Shown: one piece after another, positions 15,556 to 64,000 of the stretch
How positions within the stretch are numbered: position 1 is the first letter of the stretch
Layout: each line of letters begins with the position of its first letter
Source of the DNA: Massilia mucilaginosa
Lineage (GTDB): Bacteria > Pseudomonadota > Gammaproteobacteria > Burkholderiales > Burkholderiaceae_D
Assembly (NCBI RefSeq): GCF_011682145.1
Contig: NZ_WHJH01000012.1
Location: forward strand, 1-64,000
Direction of reading: 5' to 3'
Length of the DNA: 64,000 bases
Position numbers and translations under genes: made by a program
The notes under the pieces: generated by a model
The model's database searches: none
The model's input: only the letters and a program-made list of their open reading frames with translations
Told to the model about the DNA's origin: nothing

Positions 15556-15694
15556 CCCCGGTGTCAGGTCTGACATTCGGACACGAGCCCAACTCTAATG
15601 TGATGTGAAATCAGCCACAGGCCGTGGCGCGAGAATATCATTTTTGCAACCCCATTGTTCAGGTCGTGTCCGAATGTCAGACCTGACACCGGGG
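15556..15694. repeat. Hairpin repeat with 31-base perfect inverted arms
   Basis: The arms at 15556-15586 and 15664-15694 are exact reverse complements over 31 bases. They contain GGTGTCAGGTCTGACATTCG and end in GACACGA toward the centre. Inside each arm TGTCAG-GT-CTGACA is itself a small palindrome. The 77-base middle is AT-richer and not repeated. The same arm sequence recurs at 60428-60610. It looks like a REP/MITE-like family mobilised in trans; no transposase is present here. Confidence 0.85.
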
Positions 15695-57896: not shown

Positions 57897-60407
57897 ATGA
57901 AGCAACACGGTATTGCCCGCGCACCCAAGGCTTTGCGCCTCAGCATCCTGGCCATGTCGATCGCGTCGCTGTCGGTCCCGGCCATGGCTCAGAGCAGCGA
58001 TGCCGGCGCCAGCGCCGAGGCCGCGCCGCCGGCCGTGGTGGTGACCGGCACGCGCGTGTCGAACCGTTCCGTGCTCGATACGGCCTCGGCGGTCGACGTG
58101 GTGTCGGCCGACCTGATCAACAACAATGGCGTGACCGAAGTCAGCCAGGCGCTGTCGGCCGCCCTGCCCGCCCTGAACTTCCCGCGCCCGGGCTTGACCG
58201 ACGGCACCGATACCGTGCGCCCGGTCACCCTGCGCGGGCTGGCGCCGGACCAGGCGCTGGTGCTGGTCAATTCCAAGCGCCGCCATGCGTCGGCGCTGGT
58301 CAATGTCAACGGCACGGTGGGACGCGGTTCCGCCTCGGCCGACCTGAACACCATCCCGGCCGGCATCATCCAGACGGTGGAAGTGCTGCGCGACGGCGCC
58401 GCCGCCCAGTACGGCTCGGACGCGATTGCCGGCGTCATCAACTTGCGCCTGCGCGAAAACCGCAGCGGTGGTGAATTTTCCGCCAGCACTGGCGCGCGCA
58501 TCACCGAATACGACTACAACACCGGCACCGTACCGGCCGGGCTCGCGCTCGACGTGCCGAACAAGCGCAAGCGCACCGACGGCCAGACCACCACCGTCAG
58601 CGGCTGGAAAGGCTTTACCTTGGGCGAGGACGGCTTCCTGACCGTGGCGGCGGAATACAAAAAACAATCGCATACCGAGCGCAGCGCCTACGACGTGCGC
58701 CAGCAGTATCCGCTCATCAACGGCAAATTCGACCCGCGCGAGCAAACCATCCAGCGCTACAACACCTGGGGCGGCGAGCCGGAACTGACGCAAACGACCT
58801 TGTTCGCCAATGCCGCGATTGCGCTGACGGGCAATGCCACAGTGTACGGTTCGGCCAGCTACCAGAAGCGCGACGCGAGCGCCGCCGGCTTCTTCCGCCG
58901 TCCGCTGCAAGACGAAAACATCGTCACGGTCTATCCGGACGGCTACCTGCCGGTCATCGCCCCGACGGTGGACGATGTCAGCGCCACCGGCGGACTGGCC
59001 TGGAGCGCGCAGGGCTGGGACTTCGACGCCTCGCTCGGTTTCGGCCGCAACAAGATGGCGTTCACGGTCGACAATTCGCTCAACCGCTCGCTCGGCGCGA
59101 CCAGCAAGACCGAGTTCGACGCCGGCGGCTTCGCCTACGACCAGCTGACCCTGAATTTTTCGGCCGTGAAACCGCTCAGCGTGGCCATCCTGCCGGCGCC
59201 GCTGAACGTGGCCGTGGGCGCCGAAGCGCGCCGCGAAAACTACGAACTGTGGGCCGGCGAAGCGGACTCCTACCGCTACGGCGGCGTGCTTCTTCCCGAC
59301 GGCCGTCCGAGCGCGGCCGGCTCGCAAGTGTTCCCCGGCTACACGCCGGCCAACGCCATCGACAGCGGGCGCCATTCGATCGGCGCCTTCCTGGACCTGG
59401 AAACCAAGCTGACGCCGGAGTTGCTGACCTCGCTGGCGGTGCGCGCCGAGCGCTACTCCGACTTCGGCAGCAACGTCACCGGCAAACTGGCCACGCGCTA
59501 CGACTTCACGCCATCGTTCGGCCTGCGCGGCTCGCTGCAGAATGGCTTCCGCGCGCCATCGCCGCAGCAACAGTTCTACACCTCGACCGCGATGACCTTC
59601 ATCGACGGCGCGGCGTTCAACATCGCCACCTTCCGGCCCAACGATCCGGTGGCCGTCGCGCTCGGCGCCAAACCGCTGGAGGCCGAAAAATCGGCCAACG
59701 TCGCGCTCGGCGCGGTGGCACGCATCGGCGCGGTCAGCCTGACGGTCGACGCCTACCGCATCAAGATCCGCGACCGCATCGTGCTCAGTGAAAACCTGAC
59801 CCAAGCCAATGTGCGCCAGTTCCTTGCCGCCAGCGGCTATGCGGGCGTGGGCGGCAGCCGCTTCTTCATCAACGGCGTCGATTCCACCACGACCGGCGTC
59901 GATGTGGTGGCGAACTGGCCGCTGCGCAGCACGGCGGGGGTGATTGACCTGACCCTGGCGGGCAACTTCAACACCACCGAAGTGACGCGCGTGCCGGTCA
60001 CGGCGCAGCTTGCGGCGCTCAATCCGGCGCCATCGCTGTTCGGGCGCGCCAACGTGCTGGGTATCGAAGAAGGCCAGCCGAAGAACAAGATCAGCGCCAG
60101 CGCGCGCTGGAAGCTGGCGCAATGGGGCGCGACCTTCAACGCCACGCGCTACGGCAAGGTACTGTCGGCGGGCAGCACGCAAGCGACCGATTTCTGGCTC
60201 ACGCCCAAGACCGTGGTCAACCTCGAAGCGCGCTACACGCTGGCCGGCGGCGCCACGTTGGCGCTGGGCGCGGACAACTTGTTCGACGCGTATTCCGACC
60301 CGCTGCCGGCCTCGCTCAACACCACGGCGGCGGTACCGTACGCCAACCGCGCCCCCTTCGGCCGCTCGGGCCGCTTCGTATACGCGCGCGCCAGCTACAA
60401 GTTCTGA
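57897..60407 (+). CDS. TonB-dependent receptor
   Basis: An 836-residue outer membrane receptor. A signal peptide (LSVPAMAQSS), then a TonB box-like VVVTGTRVSNRS, then the plug: SAVDVVSADLINNNGVTEVS, LPALNFPRPG, VRPVTLRGLAPDQALVLVNS, VEVLRDGAAAQYGSDAIAGV. The barrel ends in GRFVYARASYKF with a C-terminal Phe. The plug with SAKRRHASALVN-like phrase (VNSKRRHASALVNVNGTVGR) is of the oligosaccharide/other-substrate TonB receptor class, not a siderophore receptor. No Fur box or SusD gene is near. AGGAG precedes the ATG. Confidence 0.88.
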   Translation: MKQHGIARAPKALRLSILAMSIASLSVPAMAQSSDAGASAEAAPPAVVVTGTRVSNRSVLDTASAVDVVSADLINNNGVTEVSQALSAALPALNFPRPGLTDGTDTVRPVTLRGLAPDQALVLVNSKRRHASALVNVNGTVGRGSASADLNTIPAGIIQTVEVLRDGAAAQYGSDAIAGVINLRLRENRSGGEFSASTGARITEYDYNTGTVPAGLALDVPNKRKRTDGQTTTVSGWKGFTLGEDGFLTVAAEYKKQSHTERSAYDVRQQYPLINGKFDPREQTIQRYNTWGGEPELTQTTLFANAAIALTGNATVYGSASYQKRDASAAGFFRRPLQDENIVTVYPDGYLPVIAPTVDDVSATGGLAWSAQGWDFDASLGFGRNKMAFTVDNSLNRSLGATSKTEFDAGGFAYDQLTLNFSAVKPLSVAILPAPLNVAVGAEARRENYELWAGEADSYRYGGVLLPDGRPSAAGSQVFPGYTPANAIDSGRHSIGAFLDLETKLTPELLTSLAVRAERYSDFGSNVTGKLATRYDFTPSFGLRGSLQNGFRAPSPQQQFYTSTAMTFIDGAAFNIATFRPNDPVAVALGAKPLEAEKSANVALGAVARIGAVSLTVDAYRIKIRDRIVLSENLTQANVRQFLAASGYAGVGGSRFFINGVDSTTTGVDVVANWPLRSTAGVIDLTLAGNFNTTEVTRVPVTAQLAALNPAPSLFGRANVLGIEEGQPKNKISASARWKLAQWGATFNATRYGKVLSAGSTQATDFWLTPKTVVNLEARYTLAGGATLALGADNLFDAYSDPLPASLNTTAAVPYANRAPFGRSGRFVYARASYKF

Positions 60408-60427: not shown

Positions 60428-60610
60428 GGTGCCAGGTCTGACATTCGGACACGAACTGAGCAAGCGTGGGCGTTTTGTACGCCTTTACGGTAGGGTTCGT
60501 GTCTGAATGTCAGACCTGGCACCAACTGGGTTGACGGCCCGGGTCGTGTCTGAATGTCAGACCTGACACCGCGCGGCGGACACCGCGCGGCGAATGTCAG
60601 ACCTGACACC
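60428..60610. repeat. Cluster of four copies of the GTCAGGTCTGACATTCGG repeat
   Basis: The arm sequence of the 15556-15694 element recurs as 60428-60454 (plus), then inverted copies at 60497-60523 and 60544-60570, and a partial copy at 60592-60610, separated by GCGCGG-type spacers. The first two make a hairpin like the one at 15.6 kb, with a GCC/GTC variation in the arms. It lies between two convergent genes, where such palindromes often sit and can end transcription from both sides. Confidence 0.85.
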
Positions 60611-60669: not shown

Positions 60670-61233
60670 TCAGCCGCGCGCGGCCTGCTGGCGCCGACGC
60701 GCAACGCCCGCCGCCAGCAAGCCGATACCCACCAACAGGAAACTTTCCGGCTCCGGCACCACCTGCACCGAACTGCCATCGGCCACGACGGCAATCTCGT
60801 TCAGGTTGGCATCGAGGAACAGCACGTCGGAAAACGTCAGCGCCGCATTGCCATTACCAAAGGTATCGAAACTGAAGAGCCCCAGCTCGCCGCTACCGGA
60901 AGCCCCGGGCCCCGCCCCGACCAGCGTGTTGAACACGAACGAAATCTTGCCGGTCGCGTTGTCGAGCGTGCCACCGTCGCTGAACGTGGCGCCGGCCGTG
61001 CTCAAAAACGCACCCTCCTTGAAACTGTTCGCCTTGAGCAAAGCCGTATCGAAGCTGAGCGTGAACTGGTAGCCATACAGGTCGGTAATATCCGAAATCG
61101 TCACAGCCAAATCAAGCTTGCCGCCCGACACCACCGGCGCCGGTACGGCGTTCACCGACAGCGTCGGAATGGCAAACGCCTGGGTGCTCGCGGCCAGCAG
61201 CATGGCAGCGAAGTATTTTTTGAAAGTCGTCAT
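60670..61233 (-). CDS. Cohesin domain PEP-CTERM surface protein
   Basis: A 187-residue exported protein. After a signal peptide (YFAAMLLAASTQAFA) comes a cohesin-like beta-sandwich of about 130 residues: GGKLDLAVTISDITDLYGYQ, FTLSFDTALLKANSFKEGAF, SFVFNTLVGAGP and ELGLFSFDTFGNGNAALTFS. It ends in a PEP-CTERM signal: VPEPESFLLVGIGLLAAGVA followed by RRRQQ. The tail is the sorting motif read by exosortase (EpsH/XrtA type), so it should be anchored in or exported by that envelope system. It follows a dockerin-bearing protease by 80 bases on the same strand, so the two are likely cotranscribed. Start ATG 61233. Confidence 0.85.
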   Translation of the reverse strand: MTTFKKYFAAMLLAASTQAFAIPTLSVNAVPAPVVSGGKLDLAVTISDITDLYGYQFTLSFDTALLKANSFKEGAFLSTAGATFSDGGTLDNATGKISFVFNTLVGAGPGASGSGELGLFSFDTFGNGNAALTFSDVLFLDANLNEIAVVADGSSVQVVPEPESFLLVGIGLLAAGVARRRQQAARG

Positions 61234-61313
61234 CTGATTCGTCCTATTGCCCTGTTGGGCGTCTATGCGGTAAGGGCCGGCCTGGTGCGCGTGCATCCGG
61301 CCGGCCACGTCGG

Positions 61314-64000
61314 TCAGTTGCAGGCGGCGCCTTTGGCCAGGCGCTGCGCTACGTAAGTGAGGTCGCGCGCGTTGACGACGCCGTCGGCCAGCACATCGGC
61401 GCGGGCGTCGAAGCCGTCCTGGCCGCTACGCTTGCCGAACGCCGCCTTAACCAGCGCCAGGTCGGCACAGTCGACCTTACCGTCAATGTTCTGGTCGCCC
61501 GCCAGGTGGATGCCGATGTCCGCGTTGGAGATGTCGAAGAACACATTGCCCACCGCTTCCACCTTGATCCGCGCCGCCGACACTGGCGTCGCCGGCAAGG
61601 TCACCTTGGCGCTGCCGTTGTTGGGCACGCCTTCGGCCAGCAGCACCGGCCAGGTCTTGCCGCCGTCGGTCGAGAGCGCAATGTTCACGCTGGCCGCGCC
61701 GACCGGTGCGACGTCGGTGTTGGCGACGTTCCAGGTGACGGTCTGCAGCGAGCCCGGATCGAGTGTCACCGCGCTGTTCGGCGAGGTCACCAGGAACGGG
61801 CCGGCCTCGGGCGCCAGTACCAGGCTGGTGCTGGCGCTGTTGACGCCGCCCCGGCCGTCACGCGCCGTCAGCTTGAAGGTGAGCGAGGCCGGGGCCGCGT
61901 TGGTGCCGGCCAGGCCGACGTAGGCGGCGGTCGGCAGGAATTCCGAGTAGCACTCGATATCGGCCAGGCTCGGCGGCGTGGCCGCGGCCGCGCACGCGCC
62001 CGTCACCGCGTTGGTGTTGTTCGACAGGATCTGCGCCAGGTCGGGGAATACCCGCGTCGGGTCGACCGTCGTGTGGTTCTCGCCCGGCGAGTTGTACTCG
62101 AGCGTGTCGGCGGCGCTGACGGTGGCGCGGGTGCCGAACTGGCGGAACAGCGGGCCGTTGAGCTTGACGTTGCTGGTCAGCCCGGTGCCGCTGGAAGCGC
62201 CCCGGTCGTTCTGCTCCCACATGTAGGTGATCGGGTCGCCATCGGCATCGGCCGCGCTGCCGCTCAGGGCGAACGGCGTGCGCACCGGTATCGTGTAGCT
62301 GGCCGGCACGGTGACCACGGGCGCGTTGTTGCCGGTCGCGGCGACAGTGCCGCCGCGCCTGGTCGGGCCGCCCACGGCGACTTCGCCCACAAAACCGCTC
62401 GCACCCGGCGTGAAGTCGACCACTTGCAGTGGCGCGACATTGACGCCGGCCAGCGCGCCGTTGAAGGTCACCGTAAACGCCGTGTCGCTCAGGGCGCTGA
62501 CCGTCACCGTGCCGCCCGCCGGCCAGCCCGGACTGTTTTCCAGCGCGGCCTTGACCCCGGCGCTGGTGTAGTTGGTGCCGCGCACGATCGGCGCCGACAG
62601 ATTGCCGTTCACGTTGATGCGGAATTGCTGCCCGGGAGTATTGAAACCGCGCAGCGCCGCGACCTGCACTTCGTTCAGGATCGACTCGGCGCTCGAGGTG
62701 TAGGCGACGATTTCGTCGAAGCTGCGCTGCGACCAGTACGGATCGCTGTGCGGCTGCAGGTTGTCGGTGCTGCAAATGCCGGCATACGCCATGATCGACG
62801 AGCCGCTGCCGACTTCGACCGAGGTGCCCGGATTGCGGTTGCCGCCGCTGCAATTGGAGGTGATGCCGTTGAAGGTGTGGTTGCCGGCGAACTGGTGCCC
62901 CAGTTCGTGCGCCACGTAGTCGACCGCGAAGGCGTCGCCGATCGGCTTGGGCAGGCCGGTGCAGCCTTGCGCCTTGGCGTTGGCGCCAACCACGCCCAGG
63001 CTGGCGACGCCGCCGCCGTTCAGGCCCAGCGCGATGTGGCCGACGTCGAAGTTGCCGGCCCCGGCCAGCAAGCCGGTCACGATGCGGTTGCGCGACAGGG
63101 TGCCGCTGCCGCAGCCGGAGGCCTGGGTCGGGGTAAAGCACGCCGCCGCGCCGCACGGGCCGTTCGCTTCGGTCATCTGGGCCGGGGTGTCGAGATTGAG
63201 GGCGTCGGTGGCGTCGATCAGCACCATGCGGATCGAGGTTTCATCTTCATACACCTGGCTGACCCGGTTCATCAGGGTGACCTTGGCCGCCGTGACGTTG
63301 GCCGAACCGCCGAAATAGGTGGCGTAGGTCGGGTCGGTGACCAGCGCCAGCCGGTAGGTGCGCAGCTGGTCGCTGACGGCCACGTTCGGCGTCATGCCGG
63401 CATCCATCACGCGGAACGGCGCGGCGCTGGCGTGCTGGCCGTCGGTGGCGGACAGTTCGAAGGCACCGGCCCGGCCGGCCGGCAGCACGACGCTGATCGT
63501 GCCTTTGGCGTCGGCCGTGGCTGTGGCGCTGTGCAGCGCGGCCGTCTCGCCTTCGCCGCGCACGGTCAGGTTGACGCTGGCGCCGGGCACGAAACCGGTG
63601 CCGCGCACCTCGACCGGGACGCCTTCTTTATAGAACGAATGCGACAGCGCCAGCTGCGCTTCGGGCAGCGCGCCTTCGACCAGCGGGCCGTGCTGGTTGA
63701 TCAGGTCGCTACGGCTGTAGCTGGCATACAGGCTGGTATCGAGGTGATAGTACGGGTCCACATACCAGCCGCCATTGGCCGAGCGCACCGAGGCGTGCAG
63801 GCCGAGCGGGGTGATATCCATGCGCAAGGTGGCGCTGGGGTCGTCGATGCCGCGGCCCTTGTACGTCTTGATGCCGGGATGTTTGGCGGCCAGGCCGGCT
63901 TCCATGATGGGCGACTCGACCAGGGTGAAGCGCTGATAGCCGCCGTCCGGATGCGGGAGCGAAATGGTCTGGCTGCTGGCCATCGTGCCGCTGCCGCGTT
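61314..64000 (-). CDS. Secreted reprolysin-like zinc metalloprotease with C-terminal dockerin (partial)
   Basis: At least 889 residues; the frame stays open to the window edge, so the start and signal peptide may lie beyond it. Domains: a pro-region-like part (1-190), a reprolysin-type protease (about 200-480) with zinc motif HELGHQFAGNHTFNG (H359, E360, H363, H369) and the Met-turn SIMAYAG, then beta-sandwich repeats (NAPVVTVPASYTIPVRTPFA, DADGDPITYMWEQNDRGASS, GSLQTVTWNVANTDV), and finally a type I dockerin: DQNIDGKVDCADLALVKAAF followed by DVLADGVVNARDLTYVAQRL. The two calcium-loop repeats D-x-N-x-D-G-x-V are complete. The downstream gene encodes a cohesin-like protein. Confidence 0.88.
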   Translation of the reverse strand, partial: RGSGTMASSQTISLPHPDGGYQRFTLVESPIMEAGLAAKHPGIKTYKGRGIDDPSATLRMDITPLGLHASVRSANGGWYVDPYYHLDTSLYASYSRSDLINQHGPLVEGALPEAQLALSHSFYKEGVPVEVRGTGFVPGASVNLTVRGEGETAALHSATATADAKGTISVVLPAGRAGAFELSATDGQHASAAPFRVMDAGMTPNVAVSDQLRTYRLALVTDPTYATYFGGSANVTAAKVTLMNRVSQVYEDETSIRMVLIDATDALNLDTPAQMTEANGPCGAAACFTPTQASGCGSGTLSRNRIVTGLLAGAGNFDVGHIALGLNGGGVASLGVVGANAKAQGCTGLPKPIGDAFAVDYVAHELGHQFAGNHTFNGITSNCSGGNRNPGTSVEVGSGSSIMAYAGICSTDNLQPHSDPYWSQRSFDEIVAYTSSAESILNEVQVAALRGFNTPGQQFRINVNGNLSAPIVRGTNYTSAGVKAALENSPGWPAGGTVTVSALSDTAFTVTFNGALAGVNVAPLQVVDFTPGASGFVGEVAVGGPTRRGGTVAATGNNAPVVTVPASYTIPVRTPFALSGSAADADGDPITYMWEQNDRGASSGTGLTSNVKLNGPLFRQFGTRATVSAADTLEYNSPGENHTTVDPTRVFPDLAQILSNNTNAVTGACAAAATPPSLADIECYSEFLPTAAYVGLAGTNAAPASLTFKLTARDGRGGVNSASTSLVLAPEAGPFLVTSPNSAVTLDPGSLQTVTWNVANTDVAPVGAASVNIALSTDGGKTWPVLLAEGVPNNGSAKVTLPATPVSAARIKVEAVGNVFFDISNADIGIHLAGDQNIDGKVDCADLALVKAAFGKRSGQDGFDARADVLADGVVNARDLTYVAQRLAKGAACN

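Follow-up and report, generated by a model that had tools for sequence, protein, structure and literature searches.

The question raised by the end of this stretch is what a dockerin and a cohesin, whose mutual binding is best known from the cellulosomes of anaerobes, are doing on adjoining genes of Massilia, an aerobe. The window analyzed here is the whole stretch of 64,000 nucleotides from Massilia mucilaginosa (contig NZ_WHJH01000012.1, positions 1 to 64,000), and in its last bases, on the reverse strand, a reprolysin-like zinc protease with a C-terminal dockerin is followed by a small exported protein made of one cohesin domain and a PEP-CTERM sorting tail. The pair is probably a two-gene enzyme-tethering unit, in which the protease would be held, through cohesin–dockerin binding, to an exosortase-processed anchor. 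We infer the binding, cleavage, location and substrate; the domains, the tail, the exosortases, the conserved adjacency, the joint presence and absence of the two genes and the recurrence of the arrangement with other cargo are observed. An earlier, sequence-only reading had proposed that the protease is docked onto such an anchor, and it is supported, with the docking itself a prediction.

The anatomy of the two proteins agrees largely with that reading. The small protein does combine a single cohesin domain with a PEP-CTERM signal, both Pfam scores lying over the curated cut-offs (Table 1); its C-terminus consists of a PEP motif, a hydrophobic helix and a basic end and also matches TIGR02595 (22.3 bits, cut-off 16), and no sortase-signal (LPXTG) family is found among the Pfam or NCBIfam matches of the pair. 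The complete protease has 1002 amino acids (aa) and an N-terminus that is signal-like by eye, and its identification as a zinc protease ending in a dockerin stands on the Reprolysin_2 and Dockerin_1 matches together with the zinc-binding motif and the Met-turn. The statement that the cohesin gene comes next on the same strand, 80 bases on, holds with its likely start, the ATG at 61233 (MTTFKK...). The dockerin had been called complete and duplicated, which is accurate for loop 1 (DQNIDGKVDCAD, canonical) and less so for loop 2 (DVLADGVVNARD), where D1, D5, N9 and D12 are present and position 3 is Leu. The same genome encodes the exosortases XrtA (346.7 bits, cut-off 208) and XrtB (410.5 bits, cut-off 275), both in exopolysaccharide (EPS) loci.

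Table 1. Features of the protease–cohesin gene pair, with positions in the window
Feature	Position	Strand	Basis
Cohesin-PEP-CTERM protein gene, 187 aa, anchor candidate	60670..61233	-	Open reading frame (ORF), Pfam; kept in 20 pair-bearing genomes
Signal-peptide-like N-terminus MTTFKKYFAAMLLAASTQAFA of cohesin protein	61171..61233	-	Judged by eye
Cohesin domain	60760..61167	-	PF00963, 42.2 bits (cut-off 24.1)
PEP-CTERM sorting tail VPEPESFLLVGIGLLAAGVARRR... of cohesin protein	60673..60759	-	PF07589, 28.0 bits (cut-off 20.7)
Reprolysin-like zinc protease gene, C-terminal dockerin	61314..64000, onward to contig base 64322	-	ORF, Pfam
Reprolysin-like (M12B) catalytic domain	62745..63302	-	PF13574 (Reprolysin_2), 104.2 bits, frame residues 233-418
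Zinc-binding motif HELGHQFAGNH	62877..62909	-	
Met-turn SIMAYAG	62778-62798	-	
Dockerin module of protease	61317..61505	-	PF00404 (Dockerin_1), 37.4 bits (cut-off 22.9)
Calcium loop 1 of dockerin	61461-61496	-	
Calcium loop 2 of dockerin	61362-61397	-	
Arg codon, position 11 of calcium loop 2	61365..61367	-	Invariant, 20/20 orthologs
Cys codon, position 10 of calcium loop 1	61467..61469	-	Invariant, 20/20 orthologs
Second dockerin Cys codon, near C-terminus	61320-61322	-	In 20/20 orthologs, shifted in one
G+C-rich intergenic hairpin, no T run	61274..61308	-	ViennaRNA fold

Within the 7.7 Mb Massilia genome, PF00963 and PF00404 each match once (E ≤ 0.001), and these sole matches are the adjoining pair, on one strand, which argues that the pairing is not due to chance. 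A profile built from 20 family dockerins, including that of the window, likewise has a single match in the genome at E ≤ 0.01, the protease dockerin. Both halves resemble cellulosomal domains, as they would if an ordinary cellulosome had been imported or had left a remnant here, but a single cohesin and a single dockerin match without a multi-cohesin scaffoldin, a protease as cargo, a PEP-CTERM tail and the occurrence of the unit in three genera of the family make such an origin extremely improbable. Membership in a cellulosome was rejected on the absence of a scaffoldin with several cohesins and on the position of the lone dockerin, which sits on a protease and not on plant-fibre enzymes.

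The distribution of the pair among relatives provides a test of the tether. The family sample comprised 294 genomes, the window's own included (NCBI taxonomy places Massilia in the Oxalobacteraceae), and was searched with the full-length protease. Matches at E ≤ 1e-20 were obtained in 24 of these genomes, one of them weak and restricted to the catalytic domain (G152; genomes are denoted here by G numbers and loci by L numbers), and 23 carry a near-full-length ortholog. Twenty orthologs end in a dockerin, eight of them in the window's genus (its own counted) and five and seven in two further genera, and three stop at the dockerin border. The sequence-only reading would have been refuted had relatives not kept the two genes together, and the outcome favours it in both directions: next to each of the 20 dockerin-ended orthologs, 21–147 bases on along the same strand, lies a gene for a cohesin with a PEP-CTERM tail, and no cohesin-PEP-CTERM gene adjoins the protease in the three genomes with a dockerin-less ortholog (G177, G067 and G282). 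By PF00963 these three genomes contain no short cohesin, although G177 has two long-frame ones. The window's cohesin protein obtains weak matches in them (best E 3e-5), mostly to its C-terminal part, with near-full-length ones at 25% identity in G282:C38 (E 2.0e-4) and G177:C47 (E 3.1e-4), and a loose tail pattern matched one unrelated-looking 119-aa frame in G282, 3 kb off. The dockerin-less orthologs form one clade (support 1.0), and because midpoint rooting nests this clade among dockerin-bearing orthologs (with low support for its exact placement, 0.551), a single joint loss of dockerin and cohesin would be the simplest reading. The protease tree does not wholly follow genus, G222 grouping with G144 of another genus (0.957), and the genes around the pair differ from locus to locus, no flank family on either side being shared by more than 7 of the 23 loci, with flanks of a few kb for most; it is hence the pair, and not the region, that is conserved. 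The cohesin protein also finds loci in M. aquatica (91% identity), M. rubra, M. frigida, M. atriviolacea and Massilia sp. Leaf139, as well as in two distant Chloroflexi-type bins; M. aquatica and M. rubra have the protease gene as well as the cohesin gene.

Approached from the cohesin side, the association is again close. The PF00963 search of the family yielded 24 places where the cohesin lies in an open frame shorter than 480 aa, 22 of which have a dockerin neighbour (20 protease pairs and two lipase pairs); the other two are an orphan in G125 and, in G117, a short cohesin frame that by eye is a piece of a secretin region. Ninety cohesin loci from four PF00963 searches, each comprising the match and up to 1.5 kb on either side and together covering part of the places listed, were scanned with a dockerin profile built from the 20 family dockerins and seven others, in place of a regular-expression detector that missed real ones. 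This profile re-finds the family dockerins by construction, and the real tests are its misses at control loci and its finds outside the family. Among the 31 family loci, a dockerin is found in a neighbouring frame for 14 of 15 short tailed cohesins versus 0 of 16 long-frame cohesins (Fisher p 5.7e-8, in a test that ignores kinship and with tails assigned by an automatic rule). The rule for frames and tails chose the dockerin frame at L126, where the tail was judged separately, and wrong frames at the contig-cut loci L113, L114 and L120, and tails called in long frames (L122, L151, L170-L172 and L174) were excluded as not short. Long-frame family cohesins, mostly of about 750–1085 aa, constitute a separate class; the two tested with Pfam, L014 (G130, family) and L149 (G835, order), are secretins with a C-terminal cohesin. 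Such secretins seem common in family and order, and none of the 16 long-frame family loci has a dockerin within 1.5 kb.

The arrangement also recurs with other cargo. In G005, and as a second pair elsewhere in the genome of G210, a GDSL lipase-like protein with a dockerin lies beside a cohesin whose tail was assigned by eye (dockerins 37.5 bits in G210 and 44.5 bits in G005 against the dockerin profile, cohesins 101.3 and 104.4 bits against a cohesin profile); by eye, these lipase dockerins have lost much of loop 1 and kept loop 2 with Arg and Cys residues. The remaining PF00963 searches covered 200 genomes of the order (33 with a cohesin), 369 of the class (22 with a cohesin, the window's own included) and 398 of the phylum (4 with a cohesin, the window's own and G018 included). 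Among the loci read in the order search, the short tailed cohesins are those of G000 and G018, both from the family; the cohesins of G797 and G705 (370 and 382 aa) are tailless, and the places in G691 (316 and 318 aa) lie outside the loci read. Outside the family but within the same class, seven short cohesins with sorting-like tails adjoin dockerin proteins. Beside them lie a glucose/sorbosone dehydrogenase in G579, an ExeM/NucH nuclease in G1184 (456.8 bits, cut-off 300), an RHS-repeat/PASTA protein with an N-terminal dockerin-like stretch in G357 and proteins without a clear enzyme family in G490, G374 and G331, and in G611 (L138, 3454-7315) one tailed cohesin is flanked on either side by a dockerin-bearing enzyme, here a multicopper oxidase and there a subtilase, and would perhaps serve as a single anchor for the two. 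The dockerins of these neighbours score modestly against the dockerin profile, at 12.8–32.5 bits (G374, 13.0; G357, 12.8; G1184, 23.8). Outside the family, seven of eight short tailed cohesins thus have a dockerin neighbour, the exception being G392 (cohesin, long linker and membrane tail), where no dockerin was found on the 9-kb contig. By the profile scan, 12 of the 29 class loci have a dockerin match of at least 12.7 bits within 1.5 kb, including five of the six tailed ones; the sixth, in G331, has its match in a wider stretch (18.0 bits).

The candidate cargo hence ranges over zinc protease, subtilase, GDSL lipase, nuclease, oxidase, dehydrogenase and RHS-repeat protein, and it may point, with a chance that we put slightly above even, to a general Gram-negative enzyme-display platform, in which an exported cohesin with an exosortase-type tail would act as a universal socket beside any dockerin-bearing secreted protein. 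The dockerin that serves as plug in the Massilia family would bind in a single mode, recognizing its partner through one loop-2 Arg, and might be clasped by a disulfide. A non-covalent snap would do on such a platform what enzyme-fused sorting tails do elsewhere.

Other arrangements of the same domains were encountered in these searches. In G006, a family genome for which no cohesin is listed, a 113-codon frame (L101, 2528-2869) consists of hardly anything but a signal-like start and a dockerin with two calcium loops (63.3 bits), and in G369 (L143, 2223-5232) several successive ORFs carry cohesins and dockerins, one of them both, without sorting tails, in what resembles a small scaffold-like cluster. 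Dockerin or cohesin matches also lie within giant open frames, the longest of about 16,000 codons, in G258, G227, G016, G107, G232, G795, G846, G818 and G688.

In the two-gene tethering model, the protease would be exported with a C-terminal dockerin where some other secreted enzymes have a sorting tail, and the neighbouring gene would supply a single exported cohesin, whose PEP-CTERM tail would be cut by XrtA or XrtB. Thus processed, the cohesin would attach to the cell surface or to the exopolysaccharide matrix, a route that the literature supports in general outline only, describing PEP-CTERM proteins as presumably retained in the cytoplasmic membrane, then processed and fixed to the outer membrane or to polysaccharide (PMC12188702, PMC9850573). 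The calcium-bound, folded dockerin would then plug into the cohesin, mainly by its second half, where the Arg at loop-2 position 11 lies, and this non-covalent bond would keep the protease near the cell instead of letting it diffuse away.

Sequence and structure comparisons are compatible with these steps. The best match of the dockerin in PDB is 2y3n_B, the dockerin of a solved cohesin–dockerin complex (E 1.4e-8 with the single sequence, 2.8e-14 with the profile). The cohesin partner in that complex, 2y3n chain A, weakly matches the Massilia cohesin (E 0.055, in a list with non-cohesins at E of at least 0.09) and matches the cohesin profile at E 8.8e-5, with cyclooxygenases as chance matches there at about 0.3. 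The AlphaFold2 model of the cohesin (mean predicted local distance difference test score, pLDDT, 71.5) has 2xdh as its best PDB match (E 5.1e-9) and obtains 105 matches at E ≤ 0.001; the titles of the best 50 all name cohesins or cellulosome complexes that contain them. Twelve columns of the dockerin module are invariant in the 20 orthologs, including D1, D5 and D12 of both calcium loops. Both repeats of CaDoc0917 read NGRD, whereas the second repeat of the Massilia dockerin reads NARD; in alignment, its Arg at loop-2 position 11 falls on that of the second CaDoc0917 repeat. PDB titles list R16D and R49D forms of CaDoc0917 with its cohesin, and by repeat order we infer that the aligned Arg is R49. 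Because the Arg is present in the second loop only, the dockerin is predicted to bind in a single mode, by its second half. Furthermore, the mature cohesins of the 20 pairs contain no Cys, so the two conserved dockerin Cys likely form a disulfide inside the dockerin, clasping its two ends.

Binding between the two domains could also serve an end other than display. A membrane-held cohesin might retain and control the protease before release, keeping it in the periplasm as an escort or inhibitor until the exosortase cut. Cohesin–dockerin bonds are among the tightest known and would be ill suited to release, and the finding of very different cargo in a similar arrangement is more easily explained by a general tether than by an inhibitor specific to the protease. 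An escort would be in keeping with a gene unit that provides each protease with its own anchor, and with a description of PEP-CTERM proteins as staying in the cytoplasmic membrane up to their processing and taking an unclear route thereafter (PMC12188702). On balance, we regard retention before release as unlikely, and well behind the tethering of the protease in probability.

Several observations weigh against the tether and its extension to other cargo. The 20 pairs are mutually related and not independent. A cohesin-PEP-CTERM gene without a partner exists in G125 (110.7 bits to the cohesin profile), a genome in which neither PF00404 nor the profile of the 20 dockerins finds a dockerin, and, of the 44 dockerin places found by PF00404 in the family, 24 belong to other proteins, 21 of these occurring where no short cohesin is listed for the genome. 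Outside the family, 7 of the 23 class loci without tails also have a dockerin near, one of them weak, and since untailed cohesins have dockerins too, the cohesin–dockerin neighbourhood is not special there to tailed ones. Among the seven sorting-like tails of the class, moreover, only that of G357 scores over the cut-offs (PF07589, 22.0 versus 20.7 bits; TIGR02595, 18.7 versus 16), the other six being below cut-off or not recognized. Within the dockerin itself, loop-2 position 3 is Asn in 11 of the 20 orthologs and another residue in nine, the window's own included. AlphaFold2 on the Ig-dockerin stretch (six sequences) gave a mean pLDDT of 52, falling below 50 over the dockerin, and this model was dropped. 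Distance matrices of cohesin and dockerin are correlated (partial r 0.56, Mantel p 0.0002), but those of cohesin and catalytic domain are equally so (0.55); this correlation hence singles out no interface and, not being specific to cohesin and dockerin, was rejected as support for one.

The orphan cohesin, the dockerin matches in family genomes without a short cohesin, and the failure of both the distance correlation and the dockerin model to point to an interface would suit an explanation without mutual binding, in which the cohesin is an EPS matrix protein in its own right, the dockerin is a calcium-stabilized C-terminal module or binds a third partner, and the two genes share nothing but an operon. 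Against this explanation stand the joint presence and absence of dockerin and cohesin across varying flanks and the reappearance of the two neighbouring domains beside cargo of unrelated kinds, and we consider it improbable.

The proposed unit combines features of several known systems. With cellulosomal pairs (PDB 2y3n and 6kgc-6kgf) it shares the cohesin fold, the dockerin sequence and a loop-position-11 Arg as in CaDoc0917, but it differs from them in having no scaffoldin, two invariant dockerin Cys, an Arg in the second loop only and a tail on a single cohesin. As in the non-cellulosomal PDB entry 2ozn (a hyalurononglucosaminidase and the O-GlcNAcase NagJ of Clostridium perfringens), cohesin and dockerin matches occur on other enzymes, although the cohesin in that entry is part of an enzyme, versus a small sorted anchor in Massilia. 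A dockerin-like match (E 0.0016) is also found in PDB 8x39/8x3a, whose molecule, compared by name only, is called Serine protease. The dockerin nuclease of G1184 belongs to the same enzyme family as the ExeM nuclease (NCBIfam exonuc_ExeM-GG); ExeM bears its own tail, presumably GlyGly-CTERM from the name of the model, whereas the G1184 nuclease bears a dockerin and the tail-like end is on its partner. NCBIfam also holds a model for GC-type dockerin domain-anchored proteins (NF041540), so that its curators have already met the general idea of anchoring through a dockerin; the two G611 dockerin proteins score 29.5 and 26.6 bits against it (cut-off 29), whereas the Massilia protease has no match at E ≤ 1, and partner and anchor are outside that model. 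ScaE is the name of an anchoring scaffoldin of Ruminococcus with a single cohesin. In sortase-anchored scaffoldins of Ruminococcus, a sorting enzyme fixes a cohesin protein to the cell and dockerin proteins are thereby held (PMC11557425), much as proposed here. Those scaffoldins, however, are Gram-positive, rely on LPXTG and sortase and hold many dockerin partners that are plant-fibre enzymes, whereas Massilia is Gram-negative and would use PEP-CTERM and exosortase for one partner, a protease. The anchor candidate resembles PepA of flocculating bacteria and other PEP-CTERM matrix proteins in signal peptide, PEP-CTERM tail and exosortase with EPS genes (PMC9850573), but the Massilia protein has a cohesin and a dockerin-enzyme partner, and it scores 26.4 bits against the PepA model (cut-off 80).

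Among the openly licensed PMC papers searched, none combines cohesin, dockerin and PEP-CTERM, none combines dockerin and PEP-CTERM, and exosortase occurs together with dockerin or cohesin in PMC5244752 alone, a study of methanotrophic archaea that, in the passages available, counts both domain kinds in genomes and states that their function outside cellulosomes is not known. Excerpts of PMC11452385 propose that archaeal type II cohesins anchor extracellular enzymes, the accessible portion of the 2024 survey of cellulosome-displaying bacteria makes no mention of Gram-negative, Proteobacteria or Pseudomonadota (PMC11557425), and of the two papers in which Massilia and dockerin terms co-occur, PMC7052144 and PMC6403190, the latter is in its available text unrelated in content. 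A pair of cohesin-PEP-CTERM protein and dockerin enzyme was not found in the literature searched; cohesin–dockerin anchoring itself is of a known kind. If the tethering reading is true, the protease would be a ready activity reporter for the destination of a PEP-CTERM protein in Massilia, an ordinary laboratory organism, and Gram-negative cells would possess in this unit a natural and modular means of displaying enzymes.

Lesser features accompany the pair. By a simple consensus, no RpoN -24/-12 sites were found upstream of or between the genes at the 20 loci. Most pairs have a G+C-rich hairpin without a T run in the gap, 14 of the 20 gaps folding with z ≤ -2 versus shuffles (ViennaRNA) and the sequence of the stem varying by lineage; the hairpin may govern how much protease is made relative to anchor, perhaps by RNA processing or stabilization. 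Upstream of the protease, L003 (6738-10893, plus strand) contains divergent genes that by eye encode a FecR-type regulator and a TonB-dependent receptor, and the pair is flanked on its opposite side, at window positions 57897-60407, by a second gene for a TonB-type receptor, also by eye. Just downstream of the cohesin gene sits a repeat element, TGTCAGACCTGRCACC, with six copies in both orientations at window positions 60428-60610 and 15560-15690, where none are expected by chance.

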